DNA of 39,498 nucleotides from a virus. The notes beneath the pieces are model-generated. The model saw nothing but the letters and a program-made list of their open reading frames with translations. It did no database searches and was not told where the DNA came from. Numbering within the stretch: the first letter of the stretch is position 1; every line of letters starts with the position of its first letter. Both the position numbers and the translations under genes were made by a program. This document shows, piece by piece, positions 9,487 to 38,783 of the stretch. The DNA lies in the IMG/VR virus record IMGVR_UViG_3300042261_000565, positions 1-39,498 of that record; one strand, 5' to 3'.

Positions 9487-10926
9487 TTACATGTAAACGT
9501 GAGCAGCCCCAGGAACAAAGGATTCCCCAAGACCTTTAACGATAAGCAAGTGGTAGAACAAGTTGCTTCCAAAGATGTGATCTACAACACCATAACGTGT
9601 AAGCAAACCAACTCTTGGTGCGAAATCGTTCGGACCAATTGTACGTTGAATCATTACTGGAATATATGGGCAATATACTAAACCAGTATCATAATAATCT
9701 GCACCCTTATAACCAAGTAATGCGTATTCTACGATAGAAGTACGACCACCTTGTTGATATTGGGCTTCAGTACGTGTGTCACGGTAGATGTTGAAACGTC
9801 CACCAACAGAACCTACTTTAGCAATACCTGCGGGTTGGGTATTTACTGTACCGTTTACTTGCATGAACTTGAATTCAGGAAGATTTTCGAGAATTGAGCA
9901 AACTCTTGGAGTTGCGATAATAAAGTTAGCGGGACCACGACGGTTGTTGATCGCAATACGGTTAGCTTCGATGATTATACGAGCATAGAAGTCACGATTG
10001 CGTTCACCAATCCAACGGGCATCGGCTGAACCAGCATACCAGAAGGAATATCCTTGACCCTTAGAAGGTGTGGACGTTCCTGCATTTAAGCAGACTTGAA
10101 CCATACGCATGATCATTTCACGGTCAATTTCGGCTTGAATTTCGTAGCTCATCGCGTTTGTCATTTCAGAGTCGATATCAATACCATTCATGTTCTTTAA
10201 GTCTTGTTCAAGTTCGACAGACCACTTAGCTGCCAATCTACGAGTTCCGGCTTCTACTGCTGTCTTCTCCATGTTGATTGTCATTTGAGGAATGTTACCA
10301 GACATTTCGAATTGCGCTAATAAAGCAGCTACACCGTTATCAAGACCATTTGTTTCGGCATCGAATACACCGGCTAAACCAGAAAGTCTAGCACTTGAAA
10401 CACCAGTATGACGGGTGTTAAGGGTATTCCAACCTACTTCAGTCGAATTTGTGCTCCAATAAGGTTGTGCGCCTTGGGTTGTACCATCAGAACTGCCATT
10501 GTAAGCGTTTGTGGTAGGACTACCAAGAGCGTTTGCATCGTATTTATAACGAAGGGCAAAAGCTAAACCAACCGGACCACTCATTGGTTGTACACCAACG
10601 ATTTCGTTTGTGATTAACTCAGGGAAAGTACGACGAATCATTGGGATTAATACTTTAGGTAAACGAGCGTCACCTGTAGCATAAGTATCACCACTGAAAG
10701 CACCTGCTGTTCCTTGATGTGTACCAAAAACGTTGCCTGATTGGGCAAAGCTATTTTCAACCAAATACTTTTCTTGGTTTTCTAAAAGTACCGCAGTACT
10801 TAAACGTTTGTGAGAATCTTCCAAAGCCGCTACTTTATCTGACTTATAATCCAGAATGGGCTTCCATTTTTCGAGCAATTCTGTTGCTCTATTTCTATCT
10901 ACATAACCTGTTGCTTGTGTTATCAT
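9487..10926 (-). CDS. 23: major capsid protein (T4 gp23-like)
   Basis: The 479-residue protein has the T4-type capsid signatures GDTYATGDARLP (about 79-90), IVGVQPMSGP and ATPRVCSILENLPEF. Its length is close to T4 gp23 (521). The N-terminal scaffold-like region holds LVE at 55-57 before NSF, a match to the (L/I)-x-E cleavage site of the prohead protease, so the mature form probably starts near residue 58. The gene is noticeably less AT-rich than its neighbours, as expected for a highly expressed protein. Its leader carries an AATAAATAATTAAAA late-type box and a GTTCAA/TTGAAC hairpin. A strong terminator follows. Confidence 0.95.
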   Translation of the reverse strand: MITQATGYVDRNRATELLEKWKPILDYKSDKVAALEDSHKRLSTAVLLENQEKYLVENSFAQSGNVFGTHQGTAGAFSGDTYATGDARLPKVLIPMIRRTFPELITNEIVGVQPMSGPVGLAFALRYKYDANALGSPTTNAYNGSSDGTTQGAQPYWSTNSTEVGWNTLNTRHTGVSSARLSGLAGVFDAETNGLDNGVAALLAQFEMSGNIPQMTINMEKTAVEAGTRRLAAKWSVELEQDLKNMNGIDIDSEMTNAMSYEIQAEIDREMIMRMVQVCLNAGTSTPSKGQGYSFWYAGSADARWIGERNRDFYARIIIEANRIAINNRRGPANFIIATPRVCSILENLPEFKFMQVNGTVNTQPAGIAKVGSVGGRFNIYRDTRTEAQYQQGGRTSIVEYALLGYKGADYYDTGLVYCPYIPVMIQRTIGPNDFAPRVGLLTRYGVVDHIFGSNLFYHLLIVKGLGESFVPGAAHVYM

Positions 10927-10993
10927 ATTTTTTATTCCTTTTCTATTTTCTTGAAATGTTCAAAACCGCTTGAACATTAAAATCTATTTTAAT

Positions 10994-11001
10994 TATTTAT
11001 T
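10994..11001 (-). promoter_or_regulatory. late-type promoter variant of the capsid gene
   Basis: AATAAATA followed by ATTAAAA on the minus strand, one mismatch to TATAAATA, about 70 bases before the ATG. The extended form matches the boxes before the gp21, portal and neck genes. Confidence 0.5.
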
Positions 11002-11040
11002 AAATTTAAAATCAATTTTTATAATTTTAATAAATATTTT

Positions 11041-11961
11041 TTATTTTCTTGTAAAAGACTCCTCTTTTTTCATACTTTCTGCAATGTCGTTAATATAAGA
11101 ATATTCATTCATTGCGTCGTTTTCTTCTTTCTTTTCGACTATTACTTTAGGTGTATCGAAAGTTTTTTGATCTATTTTGGTAACAGTTTTTTCTGTTTCT
11201 TTTTCGATTTTTTCAGCTTCGTCTTTATTAAACATTTCGACAACATAATTAAAATTCTTTTCTATTTCTGTAGAATTTTTACCATCGAGCAATTTCATTA
11301 CGAATTTTTTCTTATCGTCTGTTAGGTCTTTGGTTTTACGTTCTAGTAATAGAGTTGCTTCTGTATTTGTTAATTTATTTTTAATTTCAGCAGCTTCTTT
11401 AATTGTTTTATTAAGTTCGCCGCGAAGTTTTTCAATTGTGTCATGACCGTCTTTAAGGGCTGACTTAAAGTTTTCGCTTATAAATTCAGGATCAACTGCT
11501 ACAATTTTGCGAATCTCATCTAACATTGTACGTGCTCTTATATTTTGGCAAGCTTCTTTTAATTGTTCTTTAGGAAGTGTGTCTTCGATATAAAGATCAA
11601 GAAACTTTGTAATTTTTTCAATTAAATCCACACGAAGGGATTCTGCACCGTTTTTCATATCGTTTTCATATTTTTCAACGATTTTCTTTAATTTAGCAGA
11701 ATGTGCTTCATCGATTTGTTTTATAACTTTATGAAATTTGGAAGTGTGATCAGCATCAATAGCTTCAATTAGCTTATCTAATTTTGCTGTGTGATCTTCG
11801 TCCATTTTAGAAAGCTCATTCTCAACTACTAATTGAATTTGTGAATTTGCTTTTTCTTCGACAGCTTCATTGAAAACTTTTGCTAAATTTGTTTTAACTT
11901 CTTCTGTTAAAATATCTGAACTAATTGATTTTAATACATCTTCTATTTTTTGCTTATCCAT
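11041..11961 (-). CDS. 22: prohead core scaffolding protein (T4 gp22-like)
   Basis: The 306-residue, highly charged and almost wholly coiled-coil protein sits between the capsid gene and small core genes, as in T4. It contains a threefold repeat near residues 54-92 (DEDHTAKL, DADHTSKF, DEAHSAKL). gp22-type proteins form the inner core on which the capsid assembles and are then degraded by the gp21 protease. Identity rests on position, composition and length (T4 gp22 has 269). AAAGGAGAATAAC precedes the ATG. Confidence 0.8.
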   Translation of the reverse strand: MDKQKIEDVLKSISSDILTEEVKTNLAKVFNEAVEEKANSQIQLVVENELSKMDEDHTAKLDKLIEAIDADHTSKFHKVIKQIDEAHSAKLKKIVEKYENDMKNGAESLRVDLIEKITKFLDLYIEDTLPKEQLKEACQNIRARTMLDEIRKIVAVDPEFISENFKSALKDGHDTIEKLRGELNKTIKEAAEIKNKLTNTEATLLLERKTKDLTDDKKKFVMKLLDGKNSTEIEKNFNYVVEMFNKDEAEKIEKETEKTVTKIDQKTFDTPKVIVEKKEENDAMNEYSYINDIAESMKKEESFTRK

Positions 11962-11963
11962 TG

Positions 11964-12125
11964 TTATTCTCCTTTAGAAATTATTTCTTCGTCTTTCATC
12001 TGTTCGCTCATTTTTTCCTTAATTCTTTCGGTAACAGCGTTTTGTAAACTGACTTTTGCTTCGGAATAATTGTCTTCAAAAATATTTTTAACAAATATAC
12101 CAATCTGCTCTTGTACTTTAGTCAT
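11964..12125 (-). CDS. small head-core protein, 53 aa
   Basis: A 54-codon frame starts MTKVQEQIGIF and ends IISKGE, with GAAAGGA as ribosome site. Upstream is a CTAAATAATTG late-type box. The charged helical peptide lies between the gp21-type protease and the gp22-type scaffold, where T4 carries the small core proteins gp67 and gp68. It is a likely minor core component, by position only. Its 3' end holds the ribosome site of the scaffold gene. Confidence 0.7.
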   Translation of the reverse strand: MTKVQEQIGIFVKNIFEDNYSEAKVSLQNAVTERIKEKMSEQMKDEEIISKGE

Positions 12126-12166
12126 AATTAAATCCTTTCAATTATTTAGTAATTCTAAATATAAAA

Positions 12167-12610
12167 TTATGAAATATTATATGTTTCTCCACCTATTTTT
12201 AATCTAAACACTTTAGAAATGTCTACATTTCTTATTCTATCTTTTGGATTTGGAAATTTTTGAATATAACTTTCACCATCAATAGAACTTACATACATGG
12301 TTAAAATGTCATAATTATCATATCGTTCTTTTGCATTTCCTAGTGGACTTCCTGCTCCTGTAATGGCCTTTTCCGGTATTTTTAATTTGCCGTTTACCAT
12401 CATTTCATCACCAGCTTTTTTAAACGGATCAGTTTTTGAAGTGTTTTTCCTTATTGTCCAAATAGTGAAATTTTCTGTACCACCATTGGAATGTGCAAAT
12501 ATAAAATTAGATAAATCTTCTTTGGAAACCGTGTTTAAATCTATGTCTTCTTGTAATTTTTGAGTTACAATATTTTCATAAATAAGTGACAATTTTTCCA
12601 AATCATTCAT
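12167..12610 (-). CDS. putative head protein with cleavable leader, 147 aa
   Basis: The start MNDLEKLSLIYENIV contains I-Y-E at 10-12, a prohead-protease-type site. The remainder is a compact alpha/beta domain I do not recognise. It is located between core and protease genes. Nearly the same leader core (LIYE) occurs in the unrelated protein at 31607-32287. Confidence 0.7.
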   Translation of the reverse strand: MNDLEKLSLIYENIVTQKLQEDIDLNTVSKEDLSNFIFAHSNGGTENFTIWTIRKNTSKTDPFKKAGDEMMVNGKLKIPEKAITGAGSPLGNAKERYDNYDILTMYVSSIDGESYIQKFPNPKDRIRNVDISKVFRLKIGGETYNIS

Positions 12611-12619
12611 AGATTTATA

Positions 12620-12829
12620 TTATTTTTTAGTGTCTTTAGAATCTGCGACTTTTTCCTTTTCGTCCTTTTCAGCTTCTTCAACATCTGCATCTAAATCGTC
12701 TTCTTTTGCAGATTGTTTGCGTAGTTTTACGTCCATCTTCGCCTTGCGTTCTGCTTTGTCATATCCCTTGTGCTTACGAACTTTATCATACGCTTCCATT
12801 AACATTTCCATATCTTTATCCATATTCAT
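12620..12829 (-). CDS. small prohead core protein (gp67-like)
   Basis: This 69-residue protein starts with LME at 10-12, a possible protease site. It has a lysine-rich middle and a very acidic C-terminus (EDDLDADVEEAEKDEKEK). T4 gp67 is likewise a small core protein with an acidic tail encoded between portal and protease. The call rests on position and composition. A TATAAATA box lies 31 bases upstream and AAGGAGAAA is the ribosome site. Confidence 0.6.
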   Translation of the reverse strand: MNMDKDMEMLMEAYDKVRKHKGYDKAERKAKMDVKLRKQSAKEDDLDADVEEAEKDEKEKVADSKDTKK

Positions 12830-12859
12830 ATTTTTCTCCTTAATATTAAATCTTACAAT

Positions 12860-12867
12860 TATTTATA
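12860..12867 (-). promoter_or_regulatory. TATAAATA late-type promoter
   Basis: An exact octamer with ATT following, on the minus strand, upstream of the small core gene at 12829 and inside the end of the protease gene region. Confidence 0.55.
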
Positions 12868-12881
12868 CTTTTATGCTGCAA

Positions 12882-13553
12882 TTACCCCTTTAAAACATTT
12901 AAAAATTGTTTAAAACTTTCCAACATATAATTCTCTATATCTTTTTTAGGTAGAGAATTTAAACGACATTCCAAAGAATTACATGCTATTTCAACTATTT
13001 TTCCACCTTCTGAAATAATATATTGGCGATTTTCATTAATACTTTCCAAAATTGCAGAAGCATAAGAAGGTTGGTGTACTAAATCCACCGCAATTAAATG
13101 AAAGTTTTTAACTTTATTATATTCACCTTCGGAAAGTAGACTACCAAGTGCTCTGCTGGAACAACCCAACTTAATACCATCCATTAATAATTGTTTAACA
13201 ACAACCCCTGAAGGTGTTGAAAGTATTCTAGACTTTCCGAAGAAAATATTATCATTTTGTTCAAGAGAAACGATATTATGACAAGCCTTTTCTAATGAAA
13301 CATCTGTTGAATTAGCCGGGTGGTCAAGTTCACCAAGTGCGCGACTATGTTTTATAAAATCAGTAGTATAACGGCCAACTTCACTAACCATTTCATTTAA
13401 ATCATAAATACGTTTATTTTGGTTTGGTTTAGAAGCAAGCATATATGGCCCTTTTATATAAACTACTCTTGGCTCGTCCTTGTTTTTTTCCTCTACGATT
13501 ACTTCTAAATCTTCTGTTATAGGGGTTTCACGTATTAATTTTAAAAGTTGCAT
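12882..13553 (-). CDS. 21: prohead maturation protease (T4 gp21-like)
   Basis: The 223-residue serine protease shows GELDHP with His78, GCSSRALG with the catalytic Ser at 132/133, and VDLVHQPS with Asp157, the triad of the T4 gp21 family. These enzymes sit in the prohead core and cut scaffold and capsid proteins after (L/I)-x-E. Its own N-terminus carries IRE (7-9) and ITE (12-14), fitting self-cleavage. It precedes the core and capsid genes. A TATAAATA box and AGGAGAG ribosome site lie upstream. Confidence 0.92.
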   Translation of the reverse strand: MQLLKLIRETPITEDLEVIVEEKNKDEPRVVYIKGPYMLASKPNQNKRIYDLNEMVSEVGRYTTDFIKHSRALGELDHPANSTDVSLEKACHNIVSLEQNDNIFFGKSRILSTPSGVVVKQLLMDGIKLGCSSRALGSLLSEGEYNKVKNFHLIAVDLVHQPSYASAILESINENRQYIISEGGKIVEIACNSLECRLNSLPKKDIENYMLESFKQFLNVLKG

Positions 13554-13577
13554 AACATCTCTCCTAAAGCTTTTAAT

Positions 13578-13585
13578 TATTTATA
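13578..13585 (-). promoter_or_regulatory. TATAAATA late-type promoter of the protease
   Basis: An exact octamer followed by ATTAAAAG on the minus strand, 24 bases before the ATG. Confidence 0.6.
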
Positions 13586-13677
13586 AATATTCTAATAAAA
13601 TCTTTAAATTTTATTGAAAAATCTAATTTATTATTTTCTTTTCATAAATTATTTATGGTTTTTTTTAATTTTTTCAA

Positions 13678-13705
13678 TTGACATTATTTTATTATATGAT
13701 ATAGT
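13678..13705 (+). promoter_or_regulatory. sigma70-type promoter of the Ro60-like gene
   Basis: TTGACA (13678-13683), a 16-bp spacer and TATAGT (13700-13705). It leaves a leader of about 65 bases, which holds the 13-mer TTGATTACAGCAA at 13721-13733 shared with structured RNA E2. Confidence 0.7.
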
Positions 13706-13776
13706 TATAAACAGAATAGATTGATTACAGCAATTAAAACCATTAAAGGAAAAACATCAGTCTGAAAGAAAAAAAT

Positions 13777-23142: not shown

Positions 23143-23197
23143 TAAATCATTTATTTTGAAAATTCAAAGGAATAATTACTAATTATTCCACACATAA

Positions 23198-25009
23198 TTA
23201 TGCTTCAGGTGGTGGTGTTGCTGCTGGTGGAGGTGTCTCTGGTGGAGGTGCGGCCTCGCCTGCTGGTGCTTCTCCGCCTGCGGGTGCCTCTGGAGGGGGT
23301 TCCTCGCCACTAGGAGCCGCTCCAAATTCGGGAGGCATGGCTGATGAAGGTGCTCCACCACCACCGCCTGTTGGTGCTGCTGCACCACCTTCAGATGCTG
23401 CTTGCTCTGCATCCTTCCAGTTTGGGCCTAATTCACCGATTTTTGCTAGTTCATATGCTAAAATTGCATCTTTTCTTTTCCACTCACGGTTCTGTGCCAT
23501 TTCCTCATCGGTCAAACCTAGATATTTCTTCTGTGCAAAGCTATTTGAAATTCCGTCGTTTTGTGACATATTGTTAAAATTCTCATATTTTAGTGCAAAT
23601 ATTTGATTTTGTTTTAACATTATATATAAGGTTGGTAAATTAAATTCAATATCAATATTAAATTCTTTAAGTTTAAAATTTTCCCATATTTTTCTAAGTT
23701 TCAAATGGGTTATAAAGCTTGCTTTTATTCCTGCTGCAAAGTTTTTCTGCATACGTTGTAAAAATTTGGCAAAACGCAATTCTTCTCTTGTCATATCTTG
23801 CCCGTCTTTTACAACATTATCGGGGTCTAATCTTCCTATTGGAACTTTCATAGACTTATAAAGTTGTCTAAGGAAATACATTAAGTCATCCAAACCGCCA
23901 AGATTCTGACTTCCCTCGATATTTTCAACGCTAGTTCCTTCGGTTCCTGTACGTTTTGGGAACCAATAACTATCTAACATACTTTGAGGATCATATGTAT
24001 TTGTAATTCTTCCTGTAGAAGTATCATAAGTTTTTTTAGACCAATAATTTTGCATCAAACGTTTCATATATGCTTCCGCTTTTGGTGGTGTTAAATTTCC
24101 AACATCTACTTTAAACACTAAACGTTGTGGTGCTCTTACTAATCTATGTATAACTATACTATCCTCAATAAGTGATAATTGTTTATAAGATTTTCTGGCA
24201 TTTTCAATGTATGGAACCTTCATAGTTCTGTCTTCGTTCCATCTGCCTGTATGAATATATGTAACTTGTCTAGGTTCTAATATGACTAATTGCTCTTTCT
24301 CTTGTTGATTAGAACGTGGATTTATAAGTGGTTTTCTTACTGCAAATCCTTCAATTACATCATTTTGTTGATTTTTATAAAAAGGATTTATTAATTCAGT
24401 AGGTATTGAAACAATTCCTAAAATTCCATATTCAGGATGTGTGTCAGATATTAAATTTTCCCAAAATAATTCACCATCTATCACGAAATTATGACCATAT
24501 TGCCAACCCTTGTCCTTTAAATTAAAAAACTGTATAAATTTATCCCACTCTTTTTGTATTTCATCCTCAATAACTTTACTAAAATCTCCATTAATCTTTA
24601 ATAAAGCACAACGATCCTTTTCATCAAAAGTGAGCCATTCATCAACAATTTCCTCAATACAATCATTTAGCAATGAATATCCTGACATTCTTCTATAATC
24701 TTGTAAACGTTTAACTTTATCAAGATCAAGATTTGCATACATGAAACGTTGATAATTTTTATCAGTAAGCAAACTTCCCATTAAATTTTCAGTATCTTCT
24801 TGGGATTGACGATATATAGAAAGATTATCTAAACGACCTTCACGATCTTTTACCAAATCCTGGAAGGTTTCATATTTTGGATTCAATACGCTAATATTAT
24901 CAAGAATTGAAACCCCGAAAGGTAAACGGGCCATTACGGTAGATAAAAATGATTTACCTGCACTTGTCGTGACGGTTGAGCCACGGTATCCACCTAAAAT
25001 ATCTGCCAT
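23198..25009 (-). CDS. 20: portal protein (T4 gp20-like)
   Basis: The 603-residue protein has the gp20 signatures DYRRMSGYSLLNDCIEEIVDE (helical wing), NFVIDGELFWEN, EGFAVRKP, SYKQLSLIEDSIVIHRLVRAPQRLVF and FPKRTGTEGTSVENI. It forms the dodecameric ring at the head vertex through which DNA is packaged. The last about 55 residues are a low-complexity Gly/Ala/Pro tail (EAPAGGEAPAG type), absent from T4 gp20 and locally much richer in G and C. An AATAAATAATT box and AAGGAGATT ribosome site precede it. Confidence 0.93.
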   Translation of the reverse strand: MADILGGYRGSTVTTSAGKSFLSTVMARLPFGVSILDNISVLNPKYETFQDLVKDREGRLDNLSIYRQSQEDTENLMGSLLTDKNYQRFMYANLDLDKVKRLQDYRRMSGYSLLNDCIEEIVDEWLTFDEKDRCALLKINGDFSKVIEDEIQKEWDKFIQFFNLKDKGWQYGHNFVIDGELFWENLISDTHPEYGILGIVSIPTELINPFYKNQQNDVIEGFAVRKPLINPRSNQQEKEQLVILEPRQVTYIHTGRWNEDRTMKVPYIENARKSYKQLSLIEDSIVIHRLVRAPQRLVFKVDVGNLTPPKAEAYMKRLMQNYWSKKTYDTSTGRITNTYDPQSMLDSYWFPKRTGTEGTSVENIEGSQNLGGLDDLMYFLRQLYKSMKVPIGRLDPDNVVKDGQDMTREELRFAKFLQRMQKNFAAGIKASFITHLKLRKIWENFKLKEFNIDIEFNLPTLYIMLKQNQIFALKYENFNNMSQNDGISNSFAQKKYLGLTDEEMAQNREWKRKDAILAYELAKIGELGPNWKDAEQAASEGGAAAPTGGGGGAPSSAMPPEFGAAPSGEEPPPEAPAGGEAPAGEAAPPPETPPPAATPPPEA

Positions 25010-26161: not shown

Positions 26162-26188
26162 AAATATATAATTATTTAGTTAAAAAAC

Positions 26189-26787: not shown

Positions 26788-26825
26788 GTAATAATTTATT
26801 AATTAAATTAAAATTGCAAGTAATA

Positions 26826-27221: not shown

Positions 27222-27226
27222 AAAAC

Positions 27227-27234
27227 TATTTATA
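27227..27234 (-). promoter_or_regulatory. TATAAATA late-type promoter
   Basis: Exact octamer followed by GTTTT and the ATG at 27221; it overlaps the stop codon of the upstream gene. Confidence 0.55.
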
Positions 27235-27487: not shown

Positions 27488-27489
27488 AA

Positions 27490-28390: not shown

Positions 28391-28392
28391 AA

Positions 28393-28626: not shown

Positions 28627-28627
28627 A

Positions 28628-29020: not shown

Positions 29021-29026
29021 ATATTC

Positions 29027-30045: not shown

Positions 30046-30054
30046 ATTTATAAT

Positions 30055-30082
30055 AATGTAACATTTTTTTGTGGAAATACAA
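30055..30082 (-). promoter_or_regulatory. sigma70-type promoter (weak)
   Basis: On the minus strand TTGTAT (30082-30077), 16 bp, TACATT (30060-30055). It would serve the run of genes starting with dCMP deaminase and give a near-leaderless mRNA. A TATAAATA directly abutting the ATG is an alternative. Confidence 0.45.
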
Positions 30083-30090
30083 GCATTTTT

Positions 30091-30098
30091 TATAAATA
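30091..30098 (+). promoter_or_regulatory. TATAAATA late-type promoter
   Basis: Exact octamer followed by ATTAAAAG, 27 bases before the ATG at 30126, with AAAGAGGATA as ribosome site. Same extended form as at 17973. Confidence 0.6.
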
Positions 30099-30125
30099 AT
30101 TAAAAGATTTAAAGAGGATACACAT

Positions 30126-30563
30126 ATGTCAAATAAATTTAAAAAATATTTTGCAAAATCATTAATAAATGAGGCCGCTCCTGCTACTTCTGATATTCCT
30201 AGTGATGCAGAAGCATTAGACAAATCTATTGAAAATCCAATAGACAAGCAAAGATTAGACCACGAACTTCAAAATGTTGCTGTAGGTGCAGATGCTGTGA
30301 ATGCAGATATTTCTAAATTACGTGAAACTGCTAGTCAATATTCTAATGAATTAATGTCAATATTGGACAGAATTGTTAAAATACACGATGACATTACTAC
30401 TGGTTCTTTGGCTAAACTTGGTATAAAATTGAGTTCTAATACACTTACGAGTATTCGGGGTGATCTAGGGAAACTCGCTCAAATTATTGGTGGTGGAGCA
30501 AATGATGTTATCATCAAGAACGAAACCGAAAAAGCAAAAGAAGCAAAGACACCTGTTGTATAA
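30126..30563 (+). CDS. putative internal head protein with cleavable leader, 145 aa
   Basis: The start MSNKFKKYFAKSLINE-AAP has basic-aromatic residues ending in I-N-E (14-16) followed by Ala, like a T4 capsid-targeting sequence cut by the prohead protease. The mature part is helical and mildly acidic. It is driven by a late-type promoter, fitting a virion protein. No domain recognised. Confidence 0.7.
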   Translation: MSNKFKKYFAKSLINEAAPATSDIPSDAEALDKSIENPIDKQRLDHELQNVAVGADAVNADISKLRETASQYSNELMSILDRIVKIHDDITTGSLAKLGIKLSSNTLTSIRGDLGKLAQIIGGGANDVIIKNETEKAKEAKTPVV

Positions 30564-30570
30564 TTGATAG

Positions 30571-30598
30571 TTGACTTTCTTAAAAAAAGAAATATACT
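30571..30598 (+). promoter_or_regulatory. sigma70-type promoter of the primase gene
   Basis: TTGACT (30571-30576), 16 bp, TATACT (30593-30598). The ATG at 30606 lies 8 bases after the -10 box, so the transcript would start at or next to the start codon. Confidence 0.65.
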
Positions 30599-30605
30599 AT
30601 TAACA

Positions 30606-31610
30606 ATGAAACAATTGCCTTATAATCTCATTGAAAAGTATTTCATTCAATATGCAGGGTTTGCAAAAAAACAATCCAGTAATAAATTAAATGGTTGTTG
30701 TTGGCATTGTAGAGAAGGAAATTCTTGGGGTAAAAAACATAGATTATGGTATTTACCCGATAAAAACATAATACATTGTCACAATTGCTCTACTACGTGG
30801 ACTCCTTTAAATTGGATTAAACAAGTTTCTGGATTATCTTACAAAGAAATCTTACAAGAATCAAATGGTTTCGATCATTTTTATTCTGATGAAGAGGATA
30901 CAGAAATATTTAAAAAATCTAAAAATACACAAACATTACCCACAGATTCTATTAATTTATTTGATCCTATTCAAACAAAATATTATAACGACAACAAAAT
31001 AGTAACTGATGCAGTAAACTATATAAAAAATAGAAAACTGGATACTTGTATAAATAAAACGGAATTATATATAAGTTTAAAAGACTTTATTCACAAAAAC
31101 AGAATATGCATTCCATTTAAAGATAGTGATAATAAAATAAGATATTATCAAACCAGAGCAATTTATCCACACGATGAAAAAGACGGAAGAAAATATCTAT
31201 CAAAGGCTAATTCTGAAAAAACTGTATTTGGTTTGGATAAAATAGACCCAAATTATGAATTTCTTTTTATAACCGAAGGGCCGATAGATAGTATGTTTAT
31301 TGCAAAAAATGGTACATCAATGGCAGGTTTGAAAATAACCGAACATCAAAAATCATTATTAAGCAAATATATAAACTTTGAAAAAATTTGGATATTAGAC
31401 AATCAATTGGATAATGAAAATGTTTTAGATAAATATAATAAACTCATAGAAAATAATGAAAGAATATTTATTTGGCCTAAACGTTATAAAAAATTTAAAG
31501 ATATTAACGAATTGTGTTGTAAAACCAATTTAAATCAAATAAATACAGATTTCTTTATTAACAATTCCTATCAAGGATTGAAAGCTAAATTAGTGTTATC
31601 GGATAATTAA
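30606..31610 (+). CDS. DNA primase with zinc-binding and TOPRIM domains
   Basis: Start taken at ATG 30606 (MKQLPYNL); an in-frame TTG at 30564 lies upstream of the promoter. The 334-residue protein has a zinc site C32/C35...C58/C61 and a TOPRIM domain with FLFITEGPIDSMFI (219-232, Glu224) and WILDNQLDNE (262-271, Asp265). Primases of this build make RNA primers for lagging-strand synthesis. There is no helicase domain, as in T4 gp61. It ends overlapping the convergent gene at 31607. Confidence 0.85.
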   Translation: MKQLPYNLIEKYFIQYAGFAKKQSSNKLNGCCWHCREGNSWGKKHRLWYLPDKNIIHCHNCSTTWTPLNWIKQVSGLSYKEILQESNGFDHFYSDEEDTEIFKKSKNTQTLPTDSINLFDPIQTKYYNDNKIVTDAVNYIKNRKLDTCINKTELYISLKDFIHKNRICIPFKDSDNKIRYYQTRAIYPHDEKDGRKYLSKANSEKTVFGLDKIDPNYEFLFITEGPIDSMFIAKNGTSMAGLKITEHQKSLLSKYINFEKIWILDNQLDNENVLDKYNKLIENNERIFIWPKRYKKFKDINELCCKTNLNQINTDFFINNSYQGLKAKLVLSDN

Positions 31611-32287: not shown

Positions 32288-32296
32288 TTTAGCTCC

Positions 32297-33199
32297 TTAT
32301 AATGTTGAAGTTGTACCTGATTTTAAATAATTCATTAATGATGTATCTGCTGCTTGCATTCCTCTTTGTAATATATTTCCTCTATCTTCATCTTTCTGAT
32401 AATTTTTTGCATCTGCTTCAGTTAAATACATTATACTAATTCCTGTATTTACTTTACTATATTTACCGTTTTTTAAAAATGTCATTAATCTATCATGTGT
32501 AACCGATAAATTATAATGTGATGATCTTATATCAAGTTTAACAGAATATCTTTTTCTTGAACGTAATTCTTGGTCTAATAATTCAGTAATTTTAAAATAA
32601 TTTTGTTTTTGTGTTGTAATGGCCGCTGAAAATGCATTATATAATAAAATAGGTAATGTTGTGTATCCATATTGATAATTACTACCTATATTGTGTTCAG
32701 TATCTGGTGTTTTAATTTCGCCATTTTCGTCAAAAGGAAATGCTATTTTTTTAATATCAGCTTCAAGTTTTTTTAATTTTTCTGTTTCTATTTTTAAATT
32801 ACCTTCTAATTCTGTTAATTTTTGTTGTGATGCTGTATCTTGTGGATCATGATTAACCTTTGAATTATATACTCTAATCTCATTATTTAATTTAGTAATT
32901 CCCTCTATTATTTTAGCTTCTTCTGCATTTTGTTCTTTTGTTACACTCTCCAATGAATGTGTATTTGCTGCAATGTTAAATTTTTCATACATTGTAGGTA
33001 AAGTTTTTGAACCACCGACTAAATAATAAACATTATTAGCATTAAAATTTTCGTGTGGTTTTATCCACAATCTAGTAGAAGGTGGTAATAAATGATACAA
33101 AGAACTAAAAAATCCTATATTATCTGCTTCTAATAAAATATTTTCGTTTATTTGAAGATCAGATTTAACTTGATTGAGTTTTTGATCAAATTTTCTCAT
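32297..33199 (-). CDS. putative virion protein with cleavable leader, 300 aa
   Basis: The N-terminus has L-L-E (22-24) followed by ADN, a close match to the prohead protease site. A coiled coil spans about 83-150 and the C-terminal part is mixed alpha/beta. No family recognised. It overlaps none of its neighbours and lies within the run 31607-35764 of likely head proteins. Confidence 0.7.
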   Translation of the reverse strand: MRKFDQKLNQVKSDLQINENILLEADNIGFFSSLYHLLPPSTRLWIKPHENFNANNVYYLVGGSKTLPTMYEKFNIAANTHSLESVTKEQNAEEAKIIEGITKLNNEIRVYNSKVNHDPQDTASQQKLTELEGNLKIETEKLKKLEADIKKIAFPFDENGEIKTPDTEHNIGSNYQYGYTTLPILLYNAFSAAITTQKQNYFKITELLDQELRSRKRYSVKLDIRSSHYNLSVTHDRLMTFLKNGKYSKVNTGISIMYLTEADAKNYQKDEDRGNILQRGMQAADTSLMNYLKSGTTSTL

Positions 33200-33204
33200 T
33201 TCTT

Positions 33205-33714
33205 TTATTGGTCGCCATAGTTATATGAATCTGGATCACTTAACGGATCATCATCAATTTCTGGATTTAATCCATAACCTCTAACTTCATCTGGTGTCAT
33301 TCTATCGCTTGAAAGTATGTCAGATTTATCACTTATACCCATAAATCCGCCCTTTGTTTCTCTATAATTTAGCTTATATTTGGGATAATCAGTATCTTCT
33401 ATTCGTTGCAATGCTTCATCAACGGTCATATCACCTGATTTAATTCTAGCTATATAACCCTTTTCTATTGAAATAATAGCATAAGCCTTTCTTTCAAAAG
33501 CATTTAACTCGTCTGGATCAGAATCTTCTTGCCCTAAATCTGGAAGTATACCCAAGGTTTCTTGTGCGTCTAATATTTCTTCTTTAGTAACTTCTTCAAC
33601 GGCAGACAAATCGACATCAGATTCCTCTTTTTCAATATCACCTAAGTCTAAATCTTCTGGTTCTGCTAAAATCGCTTCATTAACCACTAATTTATATAAA
33701 GTATCAAATTTCAT
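33205..33714 (-). CDS. acidic putative virion protein with leader, 169 aa
   Basis: It starts MKFDTLYKLVVNEAIL; the V-N-E (11-13) before Ala is a near match to the cleavage motif. The rest is strongly acidic and Asp-rich at both ends. A CATAAATAATTAAAA late-type box and TAGGAGAT ribosome site lie upstream. Confidence 0.7.
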   Translation of the reverse strand: MKFDTLYKLVVNEAILAEPEDLDLGDIEKEESDVDLSAVEEVTKEEILDAQETLGILPDLGQEDSDPDELNAFERKAYAIISIEKGYIARIKSGDMTVDEALQRIEDTDYPKYKLNYRETKGGFMGISDKSDILSSDRMTPDEVRGYGLNPEIDDDPLSDPDSYNYGDQ

Positions 33715-33734
33715 ATAATATCTCCTATTTTAAT

Positions 33735-33742
33735 TATTTATG
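33735..33742 (-). promoter_or_regulatory. late-type promoter variant CATAAATA
   Basis: CATAAATA followed by ATTAAAA, 20 bases before the ATG at 33714, on the minus strand. Confidence 0.5.
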
Positions 33743-34352
33743 TAAAAGCGTTTGTAATTAACGAATCTTCTGCACAATATGCCTGTCCATCAGTATTTAT
33801 ATATAATTTCATCATTTGTATTTTTTCTTGTACATTTCCGAATATTTCTATCATTGGCGGCGATCCAGATGGTTCGTTAAATGGAAATATCCAAGGTTTA
33901 TTTTTTGTATAAGTTTCTAATATTACACTATAAAAATTATCAAATTCTGTATCAGTGTTGCCTTCTTGTTTGTTGGATAAACACAAATAAAAAATAACAT
34001 CATAAAATGTCATTGATTGTTTAGCCAACATTATTGCTCTTTGTATAAAAAGATCATCAAATTCTTCATTGCCTTTGGAAGCATTCCAAAATATACTTAC
34101 CAAAGAATCCAACGTGCTATACGTATGTAAAATATTTTTAGTTTTGTTAAATTCCATTGCTTTGTCTATTCTATCATTTAATAATTTATATTGCTTATTA
34201 GCCAATGTTTCATTATCTGGATATGTTAAATCTTTATTAAGATTAATCTCTGGTTTAACCTCAACTATTTCATACATAGGCCATTCTTTAATAAGTTGGG
34301 ATATAAATTCGTTTGTGTCATTTTGACGCACACCGCATAATGCTATTCTCAT
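33738..34352 (-). CDS. P-loop NTPase-like protein with degenerate Walker A
   Basis: The start RIALCGVRQNDTNEFI has the strand and Gly of a P-loop, but the GK(S/T) residues are D-T-N. Later YDVIFYLCLSN (about 118-128) and MIEIFGNVQEKIQMM (about 168-182) follow the order of NadR-type AAA ATPase/kinase domains. It may bind no nucleotide, or act as a structural relic of a kinase. It is located between a secreted nuclease gene and head-type genes. Confidence 0.6.
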   Translation of the reverse strand: MRIALCGVRQNDTNEFISQLIKEWPMYEIVEVKPEINLNKDLTYPDNETLANKQYKLLNDRIDKAMEFNKTKNILHTYSTLDSLVSIFWNASKGNEEFDDLFIQRAIMLAKQSMTFYDVIFYLCLSNKQEGNTDTEFDNFYSVILETYTKNKPWIFPFNEPSGSPPMIEIFGNVQEKIQMMKLYINTDGQAYCAEDSLITNAFT

Positions 34353-34361
34353 AATTCTCCT

Positions 34362-34835
34362 TTAATAATTTTTATATACTGCTTCACCATTTTCTACTAT
34401 TTTTTTATTTATATTAATTCCATCCAAATAAATAGTTACAATATATCTTCCATATTTATCAGTTTCCTCGTCTTCCGTTTTTATTACAACTTCTTTATCT
34501 TGAATAAGTTTTGTTAAAAATTCTTTGGATTTATGTCCATTATTATCCTTATCGTTTTTCATTTCAGGCGCATTAATTCCAAACAATCTAAATCTTTTTT
34601 GAATTTTAACATTAAAACCTAAATCTACTAACATATCTACTGTATCACCGTCTACTACTTTTACCACTTTCGCCTTATGATAAAAATCGAATTGTATTGC
34701 TGATCTCCAATAGTTTGTTGATGCTATATTGCCTGAATAACAATAATTTGTTGTAACTGTTGTAAAATCATTTATTTGTGAATAACCTGAAAGAGATAAA
34801 AATATACTAAAGATAAAAATTATTATAAATTTCAT
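34362..34835 (-). CDS. secreted staphylococcal-nuclease-like (SNase) protein
   Basis: Start taken at ATG 34835, preceded by AAAAGG; a GTG six bases upstream is less likely. A signal peptide (residues 1-19) directs export. The SNase domain shows VVDGDTVDMLVD, RLFGINAPE and DKYGRYIVTIYLDG. The calcium-binding Asp of the DxPE-type motif is Asn here (INAPE). It may degrade nucleic acid in the periplasm or be carried by the virion. Confidence 0.87.
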   Translation of the reverse strand: MKFIIIFIFSIFLSLSGYSQINDFTTVTTNYCYSGNIASTNYWRSAIQFDFYHKAKVVKVVDGDTVDMLVDLGFNVKIQKRFRLFGINAPEMKNDKDNNGHKSKEFLTKLIQDKEVVIKTEDEETDKYGRYIVTIYLDGININKKIVENGEAVYKNY

Positions 34836-34880
34836 AAACACCTTTTAATAATTTATAATAATTTTTAATAATTCAAGTTA

Positions 34881-35426
34881 TTAAGGTATATATTTAGAAT
34901 TTAAACCAATAACATTAACTATTTTATCATAAATTTCTTTTGCGTTTTCTACAGTAACTTCTGAAATTCTTGATATATCAGCATATTCTGGTTCTTGTGG
35001 AGATTTGTCAACATCATACAAAGCTTTTAATGCAATTGTTACCATATCAATTAAATCGTTACCTTCTACTGGAGTTTTAGAACCTTTTCCAAAATTTTTA
35101 TTAAAATGTTTTTGTGCATCTGTAGGTAAATTAGATTGAATAATTTGTAAAAATTTATAAACATTTTCGTTTGTAATTTTAGTATTTGACATTCCTGTAT
35201 ATTTATTTAACTTAGGTTTTGTTTTAAAAGCATCTAAAATAGTTTGTGTTATTGCAGCAAAGGCTGGTGATGACGGTTGTTTTTGTACAGGAGGAGCAGG
35301 AGGAGGGGGTGTATCTGATGTTCCTGCGGGGGCTGGTGGTGCTGGTGCTCCTGCTTGTGCCGCATTAACATCGTCAGCTTCTAATAACATTTTATATTTA
35401 TCAATACTTTTATCAAATAATCTCAT
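34881..35426 (-). CDS. putative virion protein with leader and Pro/Ala linker, 181 aa
   Basis: L-L-E (14-16) before Ala-Asp fits the prohead protease site. A Pro/Ala-rich linker follows (about 25-52), then a helical domain (about 55-181). The build (leader, flexible linker, folded domain) is shared with 35429-35764 and 31607-32287. Confidence 0.7.
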   Translation of the reverse strand: MRLFDKSIDKYKMLLEADDVNAAQAGAPAPPAPAGTSDTPPPPAPPVQKQPSSPAFAAITQTILDAFKTKPKLNKYTGMSNTKITNENVYKFLQIIQSNLPTDAQKHFNKNFGKGSKTPVEGNDLIDMVTIALKALYDVDKSPQEPEYADISRISEVTVENAKEIYDKIVNVIGLNSKYIP

Positions 35427-35428
35427 TA

Positions 35429-35764
35429 TTATACCTTTGTTGTAACCTGTTGTTGCATTGGTTGTTGTGTATTGGTTTGAACCTGTTGTTGTGGTTGATT
35501 TTTTGTTATATAATCTTGTAAAGCTTTTTGTAAATTAGGGTCTTTTTGAATTTTTGAAAGTATATCTGGTAAATTTTGTGCTGTAACTTGTACATCCGTT
35601 GGCTTTGCAACTGGTTGTTGTGTTGGTTGAGCAGTTGCTTGTGTTCCTGCTACTGGTGCTGTTTGTGTGGTAGATGTTGTTTGTGGTTTTGATGCATTTG
35701 GAGCAGATTGTAATGCAGCTTCATATAATTTCATTTTTTGTTCTATTAATTTATCGAATTTCAT
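35429..35764 (-). CDS. putative virion protein with leader, Gln/Thr-rich, 111 aa
   Basis: L-Y-E (13-15) before Ala-Ala fits the protease site. The rest is low-complexity Gln, Thr, Pro and Ala around a short helical part (about 55-88). A TATAAATAGTTAAAA box and CAGGAGATT ribosome site precede it. Confidence 0.7.
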   Translation of the reverse strand: MKFDKLIEQKMKLYEAALQSAPNASKPQTTSTTQTAPVAGTQATAQPTQQPVAKPTDVQVTAQNLPDILSKIQKDPNLQKALQDYITKNQPQQQVQTNTQQPMQQQVTTKV

Positions 35765-35786
35765 TTTTTAAATCTCCTGTTTTAAC

Positions 35787-35794
35787 TATTTATA
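35787..35794 (-). promoter_or_regulatory. TATAAATA late-type promoter
   Basis: Exact octamer followed by GTTAAAA, 22 bases before the ATG at 35764. Confidence 0.6.
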
Positions 35795-35864
35795 TAAAAT
35801 AATATCTTTTTCAAAGACAAAATTAGATATTATGTGTGTTCAGCGAAGGTATGGCTTTATAAAA

Positions 35865-35921
35865 CCTTTTCTTTTTGTTTCTTTCTTTCTTATATATTCT
35901 TTCTTTCTTTCTTTTTCTTTT
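35865..35921. repeat. polypyrimidine/polypurine tract
   Basis: A CTTT/TTTC-rich tract, pure purine on the minus strand apart from a TATATA interruption. It lies in the 239-base gap between genes at 35764 and 36004. The rest of that gap holds only very AT-rich DNA and the late promoter. Confidence 0.85.
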
Positions 35922-36003
35922 AGAATTTTATAAAAGTTTTATATTATATATTATAAATCTTATAAATATTAAAAAAGCTTAAAGCCAGGATTTTTTTATT
36001 GAT

Positions 36004-36408
36004 TTAGAATCTGTTTATCTTGTAAAACACTTCTTGTATCAAATCAGGATTCGTCAGCAATGCCTCTCGCTTGCCCAAGAAAATTCGATCAGGGCATAAC
36101 CCGCGCAAAGACCTTAACTGAGGTTTTAAGAATTTTCTAAGGGCTTCCAAGTCTATGTACTCCAATTCTCCCTCAACAATGTTCGGAAATATAACAAAAA
36201 CATCTTTAATTAATGGATCATTGGATTTGTGTTTCAAAATAAAATAAGATATAAAATTAATAAAAATTTGTTTAACTTCTCTTTTTTTTAAATTTACTTG
36301 ACCATTTTCAAATAAACCATAAGCGTAAATAGAATCCATGATCGTGTTATGGATTTTATTTTTATAAAAAAGATTAAAATCAATTAGATTGATATTATAA
36401 TTCACCAT
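36004..36408 (-). CDS. hypothetical protein, 134 aa
   Basis: Not recognised. The protein is helical and basic, with an aromatic-rich start and an Arg-rich C-terminal third (RSLRGLCPDRIFLGKRE). No ribosome site is obvious. Confidence 0.65.
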   Translation of the reverse strand: MVNYNINLIDFNLFYKNKIHNTIMDSIYAYGLFENGQVNLKKREVKQIFINFISYFILKHKSNDPLIKDVFVIFPNIVEGELEYIDLEALRKFLKPQLRSLRGLCPDRIFLGKREALLTNPDLIQEVFYKINRF

Positions 36409-36425
36409 GATAATATCATAGCATA

Positions 36426-36887
36426 TTATTTAAATGATTCAAGAATAGTCTTTTCAATTAATTCCGATGGAAGTCCATTGGTTTTTGCTTCCATTAAACA
36501 ATCTTTAAATCTTTTTGAAATTATTGAAAGTTCTGATTTAAATTGCAACTCCTTTTCGTATAATTCAATTGGAAGATTTGAAGTATTTACTAGACGTTCT
36601 AAGAAAACAGAAGTATTTAATATATCTATTTTATTACCAACAAGTTTTTTTAATTTTGTGATATAAGCATCAATTGCAGTAAAAGCTAATTTTTCGTCAA
36701 TTGTTATTGGTCTTTTTAATTGATTTCCGTTTTCGTCAATAATCCCAAGTTTAAAAGCCTGTGAATTTATAAATGGTTCTTCCATTTTTTTCATCAAATA
36801 AGAAGTTAAAAAAGATTCATTTAAATTTAATGAATATTCTGATTCTGGAGAATTTCCACATAAAATACATTTTTCTTTATTTTTCAT
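36426..36887 (-). CDS. virion-associated protein of T4-like type, 153 aa
   Basis: After a zinc-knuckle-like start (CILCG) it has LNESFLTSYLMKKMEEPF (22-39) and AFKLGIIDENGNQLKRP (44-60), a segment known from structural-region proteins of many T4-like phages. L-N-E at 22-24 fits the protease motif, so the Cys-rich leader may be removed. A CTAAATAATT box lies 3 bases before the ATG. Confidence 0.7.
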   Translation of the reverse strand: MKNKEKCILCGNSPESEYSLNLNESFLTSYLMKKMEEPFINSQAFKLGIIDENGNQLKRPITIDEKLAFTAIDAYITKLKKLVGNKIDILNTSVFLERLVNTSNLPIELYEKELQFKSELSIISKRFKDCLMEAKTNGLPSELIEKTILESFK

Positions 36888-36901
36888 TTGAATTATTTAG
36901 T

Positions 36902-37588
36902 TTATTTATTTGACTTTTCAACAAGTTTAAATTCCAATGGAATGATTCCTATGCACATTTTTAAATTATTTTCCGGTGGTGCAAATGGTGATAATTTTAA
37001 TATTAATGAAATACATTCTTTTTCTAAAAGCTTATTATTTTTGTCTGAAGCTGATACAAGTTTAATAATTTCACCTTTTTCATTTATTCCAATACACAAA
37101 ATAATATTACCTGATATATTGTTTCTTAATGAGTTTTTAGGGTATTTTATTTTATTTTGTATAATATTTCTAACTATATTTAAATATAATAATTCGTTTG
37201 TATTAGAAAAATTAGAAAATAATTCGCTTTTAAAAGAATCATTATTAAAATAATAACTATTAAAATAATAACTATTTGTAATACTATTTATAACACGATT
37301 ATTATGTGGAATAATTTGTTTTATATCATCTGAATAAACCAAAGATTCTTTAAAATTGCTAATTTGTGATATTTCAGTTTGAATGTCGAAACTATAACAC
37401 GAATTTCTCTCAACAATATCTAATTTAACTTCTTCAATCGAATTTATATTTAAATATTCTAAATAAATTGGTTTATAATAATTTATATTAATATTTCTAA
37501 TATAACCTAATATAAAAATATTAAAAAATATCAGAACAATTAAATGAATTATTATTGAAATTAAAAACGAAAAATTAAATCTTTTCAT
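36902..37588 (-). CDS. TonB-like protein
   Basis: Residues 7-29 form one N-terminal membrane helix after a short basic start. The C-terminal domain (about 134-223) matches TonB: YLNIVRNIIQNKIKYP (135-150, with the YP typical of TonB), GNIILCIGINEKGEI, LLEKECISLILKLSPFAPP and IPLEF. The long Pro-rich spacer of cellular TonB is replaced by an Asn/Ser/Tyr-rich stretch. TonB couples inner-membrane energy to outer-membrane receptors; a phage copy could alter receptors or block other phages. It overlaps the HNH gene by ATGA. Confidence 0.8.
   Translation of the reverse strand: MKRFNFSFLISIIIHLIVLIFFNIFILGYIRNININYYKPIYLEYLNINSIEEVKLDIVERNSCYSFDIQTEISQISNFKESLVYSDDIKQIIPHNNRVINSITNSYYFNSYYFNNDSFKSELFSNFSNTNELLYLNIVRNIIQNKIKYPKNSLRNNISGNIILCIGINEKGEIIKLVSASDKNNKLLEKECISLILKLSPFAPPENNLKMCIGIIPLEFKLVEKSNK
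37244..37273. repeat. 15-bp tandem duplication
   Basis: ATTAAAATAATAACT occurs twice in tandem inside the TonB-like gene and encodes a doubled SYYFN-type stretch in its spacer region. Confidence 0.9.
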
Positions 37589-37995
37589 TTCAACAATATT
37601 TCTAAATTTTTAATAATATTTTCTAAATATTCTGTAGTTAAATCAACATTATTTTGATAATTTTTTAATAAATATTCATAACGTTCTGGATATTTTTGTC
37701 TAAACCATTCTGAAAAAATAATACCACCTTTATGCGCTCCAGTTGAGGAAAATTTATGACACCAAGAACATAAACTTACCCCATTTTCGATATCCCAGGA
37801 TAAATTATGATTTTCCCGTCCTACAACATGATGTGCATTTAAAATTGTTGGCCTTCCTCTTTTATTAAGTTCTTTATATTTTATACCACAAAGTTCACAA
37901 TATCCTTTGTTTCGAACAATTTCAGACCACAATTTCCATGCTTGTTTTTTTAATTTGAAAATAGAAGGTTTTTTTATTTTTTTATTCTTTTTCAT
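37585..37995 (-). CDS. HNH endonuclease
   Basis: The 136-residue protein has CELCG (about 33-37), LNAHHVVGRENHN with the catalytic His, NGVSLCSWCH, and a later HKGG with EWF. This is a complete HNH nuclease core with a zinc site. Similar free-standing HNH genes occur in T4-like phages as mobile genes or packaging helpers. It overlaps the TonB-like gene by four bases, so both are translated together. Confidence 0.87.
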   Translation of the reverse strand: MKKNKKIKKPSIFKLKKQAWKLWSEIVRNKGYCELCGIKYKELNKRGRPTILNAHHVVGRENHNLSWDIENGVSLCSWCHKFSSTGAHKGGIIFSEWFRQKYPERYEYLLKNYQNNVDLTTEYLENIIKNLEILLK

Positions 37996-38009
37996 GTAGA
38001 TATTTACAA

Positions 38010-38783
38010 TTAAATGTCTAATTTCAATTGAGGTTCTGGTTTAGGCTTGGGTTGTGGATGTGTTTTATCAAAAAGTTTCTGTTTCAATTCCGGTGTCAGT
38101 TCAAAGGCTTCATAATTTGATGACATATCTCTGGTTTTGTGTTTATATGATCCAATGGCTTGTTTAGGCGAATATCCCCATGCTGTTACAAAACCATGAA
38201 AATTATTTACGTCTTTATGATTTATAATATATTCCCCATTTTTTAATAAAACATAACGAATTCTAGGTGTATGTGCTTCATTAACTAAAGTTCTACGAAT
38301 TATTGGAATTTTATCTTTTTTCTTTTTCTTTTTAGATTTTTTATCGGTGGCTTGAGGAATTACCATTCGTGCATCGCCTGTAGCATAAGTATCGCCACTA
38401 AATTGTGTGGAGGTTGCAGTTACATTGGAACCAAACATACTTCCACCTCCACCTGCCATCGTATTTTCTTTCAATTCTTTCTCTTTGTCCAATTCTGCTA
38501 CAATATCTTTAAAAGATTTTTTAACACCTTTTTTAAGCCTTTTCTCAGCAGTATCCAACTCGTCATAATATTTTGAAGATATTTTATCATCTTTTTTAAT
38601 AGGAAACTCGGACATATGCTGTTTAGCAATAGTTTCAGCTTTTTTTGAATCTGTGGTATGCTCTTTTTCTACATTTGCACCTTTTTTAACAACTTTTGAA
38701 TCAAAATCAGATGTTTTTGTATGTAAAAGATTAACCTTTTCTATTAAATTACTTTTAAAAATATTTAAAAAATTCATTGACAT
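38010..38783 (-). CDS. putative head protein sharing a segment with the capsid protein
   Basis: The 257-residue protein starts with L-I-E (13-15), a possible cleavage site. Near residues 125-137 it contains FSGDTYATGDAR, identical to the capsid protein's N-terminal region, and then IPIIRRT, matching IPMIRRT there, but split by an insertion of KKSKKKKKKDK type. The C-terminal part has a folded domain (about 170-235) and a Pro/Lys tail. It may contact or mimic the capsid protein in the prohead. TACTAAATAC lies upstream as a possible late box. Confidence 0.7.
   Translation of the reverse strand: MSMNFLNIFKSNLIEKVNLLHTKTSDFDSKVVKKGANVEKEHTTDSKKAETIAKQHMSEFPIKKDDKISSKYYDELDTAEKRLKKGVKKSFKDIVAELDKEKELKENTMAGGGGSMFGSNVTATSTQFSGDTYATGDARMVIPQATDKKSKKKKKKDKIPIIRRTLVNEAHTPRIRYVLLKNGEYIINHKDVNNFHGFVTAWGYSPKQAIGSYKHKTRDMSSNYEAFELTPELKQKLFDKTHPQPKPKPEPQLKLDI

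Follow-up and report, generated by a model that had tools for sequence, protein, structure and literature searches.

A T4-type head gene cluster lies on the minus strand of IMGVR_UViG_3300042261_000565, a single virus record of 39,498 nucleotides (39.5 kb) that is analysed here over its whole length and is called the window. Tripeptides of the form (L/I)-x-E, x being any residue, occur near the starts of a number of otherwise unrelated proteins encoded in it, and an initial annotation had taken them for the ends of capsid-targeting leaders on a dozen proteins that would be packaged in the head and cut there. The locus raises the question of whether these sites mark propeptides of the kind known from T4, which proteins bear them and what such proteins might do in the head. 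Comparison with related genomes suggests that the leaders are very probably T4-type capsid-targeting propeptides on unrelated proteins, although the number of packaged cargo proteins had been set too high. Another product of the same protease is predicted to be the protein encoded at 38010-38783, in which a different cut site precedes a copy of the stretch with which the mature capsid protein begins (the fist), a feature that the initial annotation had overlooked. The two parts taken together, with any docking role of this copy left aside, form a reading that we consider likely.

Head module and capsid cut site

Judged by its gene families, the head region belongs to the T4 superfamily, with genes for a gp21-type S77 protease, a gp22-like scaffold and a gp23-like capsid protein in the T4 order 21-22-23. 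Genes are named below by their start coordinates, and ^ marks a putative cut.

9487-10926, minus strand: major capsid protein, gp23-like (phrog_138, 7.6e-88)
10756-10926, minus strand: predicted capsid propeptide, 57 residues, ending LVE
10654-10755, minus strand: fist segment of the mature capsid protein
11041-11961, minus strand: scaffold, gp22-like, leader with LTE^E (phrog_237, 7.5e-6)
12882-13553, minus strand: prohead protease, gp21-like, N-terminal IRE (Peptidase_S77, 2.9e-18; phrog_207, 7e-46)

Relatives were taken from IMG/VR (104 found, 80 kept), and the main comparison genome, G001, is a 248-kb contig that is syntenic with the window and whose capsid protein is 84% identical. The closest isolate capsid is about 35% identical to that of the window, and a search of the window DNA against the phage collection gave no matches.

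The capsid site LVE^N coincides with the cut position of T4 gp23 and closes the long propeptide rather than a short leader. The region around it is kept in 55 distinct relatives, mostly as x-x-E followed by A, E, S, N or Q. In about half of the capsid relatives (e.g. L058, L060 and L061) the aligned position reads CIE, CLE, CFE or similar and not L/I-x-E, the regular expression for this position being possibly one residue off where EE occurs; the P3 preference of the protease may therefore vary within the clade. At the N-terminus of the scaffold, LTE or LNE is kept in most relatives, and the IRE of the protease appears in them as LRE or LLE.

Leaders exceed the chance expectation

The simplest account of the leaders would be chance, (L/I)-x-E being a common tripeptide whose matches near protein starts had been selected. 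The pattern [LI].E is indeed found in about one quarter (24%) of interior tiles, so a single match is weak evidence, and counting the loose pattern as the sole test was rejected as too weak. The excess in the window is real, with the loose pattern present at residues 9-25 in 24 of 51 genes (odds ratio 2.9, P=5e-4) and [LIV].EA in 7 of 51 against 2.8% of interior tiles. A stricter leader, defined as an early aromatic residue followed by [LIV]xE plus A, G or S, is present in 6 window genes, where 0.55 (shuffles) or 0.95 (interior rate) are expected.

A position model was trained on 58 leaders from distant relatives, with the window, its close relatives and T4 excluded. At the 1% level it selects seven window genes against 0.55 expected, namely 33199, 35764, 30126, 12610, 33714, 35426 and 1727-2056, the last being a probable false match. 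In T4, which was unseen by the model, ipI, ipIII and ipII take ranks 1-3 of 244 genes and gp22 takes rank 8. T4 gp2, the DNA-end protector (gene 2, L153:26061-26885), starts MAIFQIINE-S, which resembles a capsid-targeting sequence (CTS; rank 11 of 244, p=0.008).

The leader-bearing genes of the window are listed below. The leaders end in (L/I)-x-E or a close variant after 12-16 residues in most cases and after 24 in 33199.

11964-12125, minus strand: 53-residue core-type protein, IFE^D (IFE^D kept and body 75% identical in G001)
12167-12610, minus strand: 147-residue core-type protein, leader MNDLEKLSLIYE, IYE^N (p=0.0004; LMEA, within LLMEA, and FVEA in orthologues)
12620-12829, minus strand: 69-residue highly charged protein, leader MNMDKDMEMLME^AY, LME^A (class recurs in relatives); TAAATAATT lies 27 nucleotides upstream
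30126-30563, plus strand: leader protein MSNKFKKYFAKSLINE^A, INE^A (p=0.0004; ...KTLINE^A in the G001 orthologue; promoter-like site upstream)
32297-33199, minus strand: leader protein MRKFDQ...ILLE^A (top model score; LLE^A, rather than INE, is the site)
33205-33714, minus strand: acidic leader protein MKFDTLYKLVVNE^A, VNE^A (p=0.0012)
34881-35426, minus strand: leader protein MRLFDKSIDKYKMLLE^A, LLE^A (p=0.01; MLLE^AD kept in G001)
35429-35764, minus strand: leader protein MKFDKLIEQKMKLYE^A with low-complexity body, LYE^A (second-best model score, reached by no random segment)

Every tripeptide named in the initial annotation is present, but not all are meaningful. About nine of the sites hold, so that "a dozen" was an overcount, and several of these nine stand in assembly proteins (capsid, protease, core) and not in cargo. 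The IYE of 32287 (p about 0.15) has no counterpart leader at that position in G001, and a second tripeptide of the protease, ITE, lacks conservation in relatives, as does the LIE of 38783; these three sites were rejected and agree with chance. The LNE of 36887, which scores p=0.02 and reads LNE^A in G001, is no more than a candidate. Missed altogether were the 12125 gene with its IFE^D and the LTE^E of the scaffold.

Leaders are kept in relatives and fall into recurring classes

Alignment of leaders across related phages, a check proposed with the initial annotation, bears out the sites of the five cargo candidates (30126, 33199, 33714, 35426 and 35764). All five G001 orthologues keep [LIV]xE^A at the same place with bodies that are 29-63% identical, and 33199 retains its LLE^A despite the lowest body identity of 29%. 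In each of the five pairs the leader has a higher identity than the body (combined P=0.004, indicative only), most clearly in 33714 (77% against 32%) and 35764 (80% against 46%). At the place corresponding to the 33714 gene, leader-bearing genes are also present in G008, G009 and G010; in more distant relatives a leader gene adjoins the orthologue of 33738 at the corresponding place, and short leader proteins rich in proline or glutamine are found again at equivalent positions.

Between the protease and scaffold genes, many relatives have several unrelated short genes with near-identical starts. Starts of the type M..KD..(L/I)xE, to which the 12829 gene belongs, are seen in 22 N-terminal cases against 1.4 expected, and those of the type MK.I..GF(M/L)xE in 10 against 0.0. 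A leader is thus common to otherwise unrelated proteins of one phage, as with the CTS of T4. These class counts, the position-model count and the retention of the Glu in orthologues all speak against chance, which is disfavoured as an explanation of the whole set and which we regard as very improbable.

Some points weigh on the other side. The training leaders of the position model were picked by a regular expression resembling the T4 CTS, so the T4 ranking is a consistency check rather than a fully blind test. In three of the five orthologue pairs the leader is barely better conserved than the body. The G001-like contigs that match the cargo genes all appear to be copies of one relative, and scans for cargo homologues returned contigs of one close relative and nothing further; conservation of the cargo is therefore drawn from few independent lineages.

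A further set was seen in G008 (L119-L121, about 173-198 kb of the contig), where at least 10 different proteins start with a leader ending LxE followed by K(L/I)xALKSF, a motif that is repeated in the middle of some members. They appear to form a separate, large set of leader-tagged proteins.

Possible fates of the leader proteins

In T4, the propeptides of the internal proteins (IPs) are 10-19 residues long and target proteins to the core, targeting depending mainly on residues 4 and 7 and processing on residues 8 and 10 (PMC9026906). The window leaders fit this description. Like the CTS of T4 IPI, IPII, IPIII and Alt, they are short N-terminal propeptides ending L/I-x-E, often with Ala next, on unrelated bodies, in a genome with an S77 prohead protease and with a late-promoter-like element. 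The bodies are unrelated in sequence to the T4 IPs and Alt, and the clade differs from T4 in having more leader classes (FD..LxE, KD..LxE and GFMxE) and longer leaders (12-24 residues). For IPIII, replacing the P1 Glu by Asp is reported to prevent cutting and to leave packaging intact. In phiKZ and SPN3US, N-terminal propeptides are likewise present on head and ejection proteins and are cut after a Glu motif (PMC5694885); those are mostly longer than 100 residues, unlike the short, T4-like leaders of the window. The system is thus of a known kind, the T4 CTS, in a new clade and with extra leader classes.

From these likenesses we infer packaging, cleavage and injection as follows. Late in infection, proteins with a short hydrophobic or amphipathic N-terminus ending (L/I/V)-x-E would join the core of the prohead, around its gp22-like scaffold; cleavage after the Glu by the gp21-like protease would leave the mature proteins in the head, and some of these may then be injected. 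The 12829, 12610 and 12125 proteins and the protease would be core or assembly members, and the five cargo candidates could be either cargo or core.

Pfam and PHROGs searches with the five candidates gave no function and no recognisable domain, and an AlphaFold model of the 33199 protein was of no use (predicted local distance difference test, pLDDT, 41). Leaders in relatives precede recognisable domains, namely an ADP-ribosyltransferase (7.6e-13; G011, L130:8610-9338), a phage lysozyme (7e-7; G016, L139:16415-17410), a poly(A)/CCA-type polymerase (1e-28; G001, L102:16772-18232), a metallopeptidase/VWA protein (3e-25; G001, L098:14926-16875) and a PcfJ-like protein (5e-10). By analogy with T4 Alt and the IPs, these enzyme domains favour the delivery of at least some leader proteins, and injection of the cargo is plausible given that T4 IPI-III are injected anti-restriction proteins (PMC12373910). 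The same precedent makes the unrecognised bodies in the window candidate early counter-defence proteins.

A different fate would be that of core or scaffold parts, which enter the prohead by means of the leader, are cut and are then degraded or expelled instead of injected. The location of 12829, 12610 and 12125 between the protease and scaffold genes agrees with such a fate, as do the T4 core proteins gp67 and gp68, which are cut to fragments (PMC9026906), and the acidic 33714 protein with its further L/V-x-E sites. A fold search with the predicted structure of 12610 (pLDDT 74) gave no convincing match, so its likeness to gp67 and gp68 is one of position only. Leaders on ADP-ribosyltransferase, lysozyme and polymerase domains suit delivered enzymes better, as does the injection of IPI-III, and we see degradation or expulsion as the less probable outcome, with an appreciable share of the likelihood. 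With the leader as a guide, candidates for head-packaged and possibly injected proteins can be listed from sequence only in T4-like phages that have not been cultured.

A copy of the capsid fist in the 38010-38783 protein

The last of the sites named in the initial annotation, LIE in the 38783 protein, is the wrong one. It reads LNE^V in G001, and the conserved site is LKE^N at residues 104-106. After LKE the protein continues NTMAGGGGSMFGSNVTATSTQFSGDTYATGDARMVIP...KKSKKKKKKDKIPIIRRTL, mirroring the mature capsid protein, which begins NSFAQSGNVFGTHQGTAGAFSGDTYATGDARLPKVLIPMIRRTF, and a further C-terminal part follows the copy.

38010-38783, minus strand: fist-mimic protein
38466-38783, minus strand: its N-terminal DUF5661-like part, ending LKE (Pfam match below the curated cut-off)
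38289-38465, minus strand: copy of the capsid arm with a Lys-rich insert
38834-39241, plus strand: UvsY-like gene (phrog_231, 4e-9)

When all six frames of the window were searched with the capsid arm, this copy came out as the best non-self match among 512 segments (z=14.2), and both LKE^N and the arm are kept in the G001 orthologue. Of 10 genomes searched in this way, 8 (the window, G001, G008, G009, G010, G015, G019 and T4) have a mimic as the top match to the capsid arm other than the capsid itself. The small mimics of relatives consist of a short leader ending hydrophobic-x-E, a fist copy and a K/R-rich tail, and have the UvsY-like gene as their constant neighbour; the mimics of G001 and G009 resemble that of the window in having a DUF5661-like part ahead of the fist.

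The segment copied is known from T4 as the N-fist, residues 66-91 of gp23, which starts right after the gp21 cut and touches four subunits including one of the adjacent capsomer (PMC7136217, PMC9958956). In T4 gp23 the fist belongs to the coat protein's own chain rather than to a separate protein. A cut at LKE^N would thus create a new N-terminus that repeats the one of the mature capsid protein, together with a Lys-rich stretch.

T4 gp61.1 shares the design

The best non-self match of the capsid arm in T4 is gp61.1 (z=9.3), a protein of merely 54 amino acids. It reads MKTFKEFIKE-DMVAGDSGGNPENISIGTTSGAVVNKGP-EQIPKKKKEESKEKEE, the putative cut falling after IKE-10, and gp23 reads FLTE-AEIGGDHGYNATNIAAGQTSGAVTQIGP at the matching segment. 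BLAST with a gp23 fragment finds the gp61.1 of T4 (1.2e-4), AS-zj (5e-6), RB43 (1.4e-5) and PX29 (5.5e-4), and phmmer against all PDB sequences gives gp23 as the first match for the gp61.1 of T4 (E=0.0067) and RB43 (0.005); the phmmer values are each modest, and their weight lies in their agreement. The long forms of gp61.1 (PX29, RB43, AS-zj, phiR1-RT and KAW3E185) carry the fist copy in their C-terminal part, where it follows a helical-looking domain and a pattern such as LIE, VLE, LFE or LYE. That domain is homologous to the product of another window gene, the one with the LNE mentioned above.

36426-36887, minus strand: homologue of the N-terminal domain of long gp61.1 proteins, matching the N-terminal part of phrog_2086 (6e-13); phrog_2086 contains RB43 gp61.1 (2e-67)
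30564-31610: gp61-like primase (phrog_47, 1.8e-36)

Mimics with different fist sequences were found in phiM12 (z=6.4) and in cyanophage S-ShM2 (z=17.6). The S-ShM2 mimic, gene 188 (L228:993-1853), lies near gp61, and as its fist starts with the initiator Met it requires no cut. This gene is annotated as "major head protein" with capsid resemblance limited to its first ~35 residues, a label that is likely a misannotation due to the fist copy. P-SSM2 was rejected as a further case, the segment failing to match its own capsid. Its gene 205 (L229:544-1191) encodes a basic-tailed protein near gp61 that reads LPEE-MMGAGAIANNVGDGKIAGT... and is an exception to the mimic rule.

Sequence comparison shows one design, in each clade with a fist sequence of its own, in the window protein, the mimics of relatives, T4 gp61.1 and its homologues, and the cyanophage gene near gene 61. 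Like gp61.1 (phrog_1823 and phrog_2086), the 38783 protein has a targeting part ending hydrophobic-x-E, a copy of its own capsid's N-fist and a charged, mostly basic stretch. It differs in its DUF5661-like N-terminal part, its extra C-terminal part and its direct neighbour, which is UvsY-like, the gp61-like primase being about 6.4 kb away, and it matches neither the phrog_1823 nor the phrog_2086 profile. It was for this lack of a profile match that plain membership of the gp61.1 family was rejected; the protein would work like gp61.1, yet is not filed as a member.

A fist copy without function, left by recombination from the capsid gene, would agree with the shortness of the copy and with the "major capsid" label on some gp61.1 records, by which annotation had already picked up the resemblance. 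Such a remnant would hardly recur in T4-like coliphages, Aeromonas phages, phiM12, a cyanophage and the window clade while tracking each phage's own capsid, with a hydrophobic-x-E ahead of it in nearly all cases. Over 11 phages, the similarity of own pairs of fist and capsid lies beyond all 20000 permutations, largely through clade differences, with P=0.013 within the window clade and P=0.17 within four T4-like isolates. We consider a remnant very unlikely and the fist copy very likely a real module, as far as sequence can tell. Set against the module are the part of the permutation signal that is clade structure, and P-SSM2 and the partial genomes G016 and G011, in which no mimic was found.

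Proposed role of the fist mimic

The N-fist of T4 takes shape when the capsid expands; it is disordered in the five portal-facing subunits, and gp23, but not gp24, is described as having one (PMC7136217, PMC9958956). Acceptor sites left empty in this way could be filled by an unattached fist with a basic tail. The loose fist of the mimic would then dock on shell sites that have no capsid fist, next to pentamers or the portal, and the docked mimic would tie the shell to DNA or core. We offer docking as a tentative proposal, somewhat short of an even chance. Extended to the T4 superfamily, T4 with its gp61.1 included, it would mean an overlooked conserved head protein in which cleavage by the protease uncovers another N-fist, one that co-evolves with the capsid and fills sites near gp24 pentamers or the portal, the basic tail of the protein facing the DNA; this, too, is possible rather than probable.

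The mimic may instead regulate assembly: as a soluble fist it would compete with the N-terminus of the capsid protein up to the point of expansion and would not stay in the head. The capsid N-terminus is disordered inside the prohead and shifts outward only on expansion (PMC9958956), which would let a soluble copy compete, and the small size of T4 gp61.1 would agree with such a role. A retained tether is easier to reconcile with the tails rich in Lys and Arg (+8 to +15 for the window clade) and with the additional domains to which the fist is fused, and we think a transient regulator rather unlikely.

The open literature searched gives no function for T4 gene 61.1, whose product one paper lists as a conserved hypothetical, and fist mimics as a class were not found in the available literature, most subscription papers and all supplements lying outside its coverage, so that prior notice elsewhere is possible. 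The fist mimic gives a testable role to gene 61.1, in one of the best-studied viruses, as well as a concrete structural prediction that can be checked in existing cryo-EM maps, and its gene may reveal a long-missed head component.

A late-promoter-like element common to head and leader genes

Eight copies of ATAAATAATTAAAA, a motif similar to the T4 late-promoter core TATAAATA, are present in the window with at most one mismatch, against 1.4 expected, a count reached in none of 100 shuffles. The motif precedes the capsid, protease, neck and probable portal genes, 30126, the 33714 and 35764 units and the gene at 34841.

10987-11000, minus strand: late-promoter-like element before the capsid gene
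13571-13584, minus strand: late-promoter-like element before the protease gene
30092-30105, plus strand: late-promoter-like element before 30126
33728-33741, minus strand: late-promoter-like element before the 33714 unit
35780-35793, minus strand: late-promoter-like element before the 35764 unit, one mismatch
23198-25009: probable portal gene, assigned by size and position

Since head and leader genes have this element in common, both seem to be expressed late.

Other genes of the window

Three related genes of homing-endonuclease type (6294-7925, 7922-9394 and 19294-20973) lie within the structural region. Directly upstream of the prohead protease gene and divergent from it, the gene at 13777-15198 encodes a phrog_850 protein ("RNA-binding protein", 5e-105) that is also found in close relatives.

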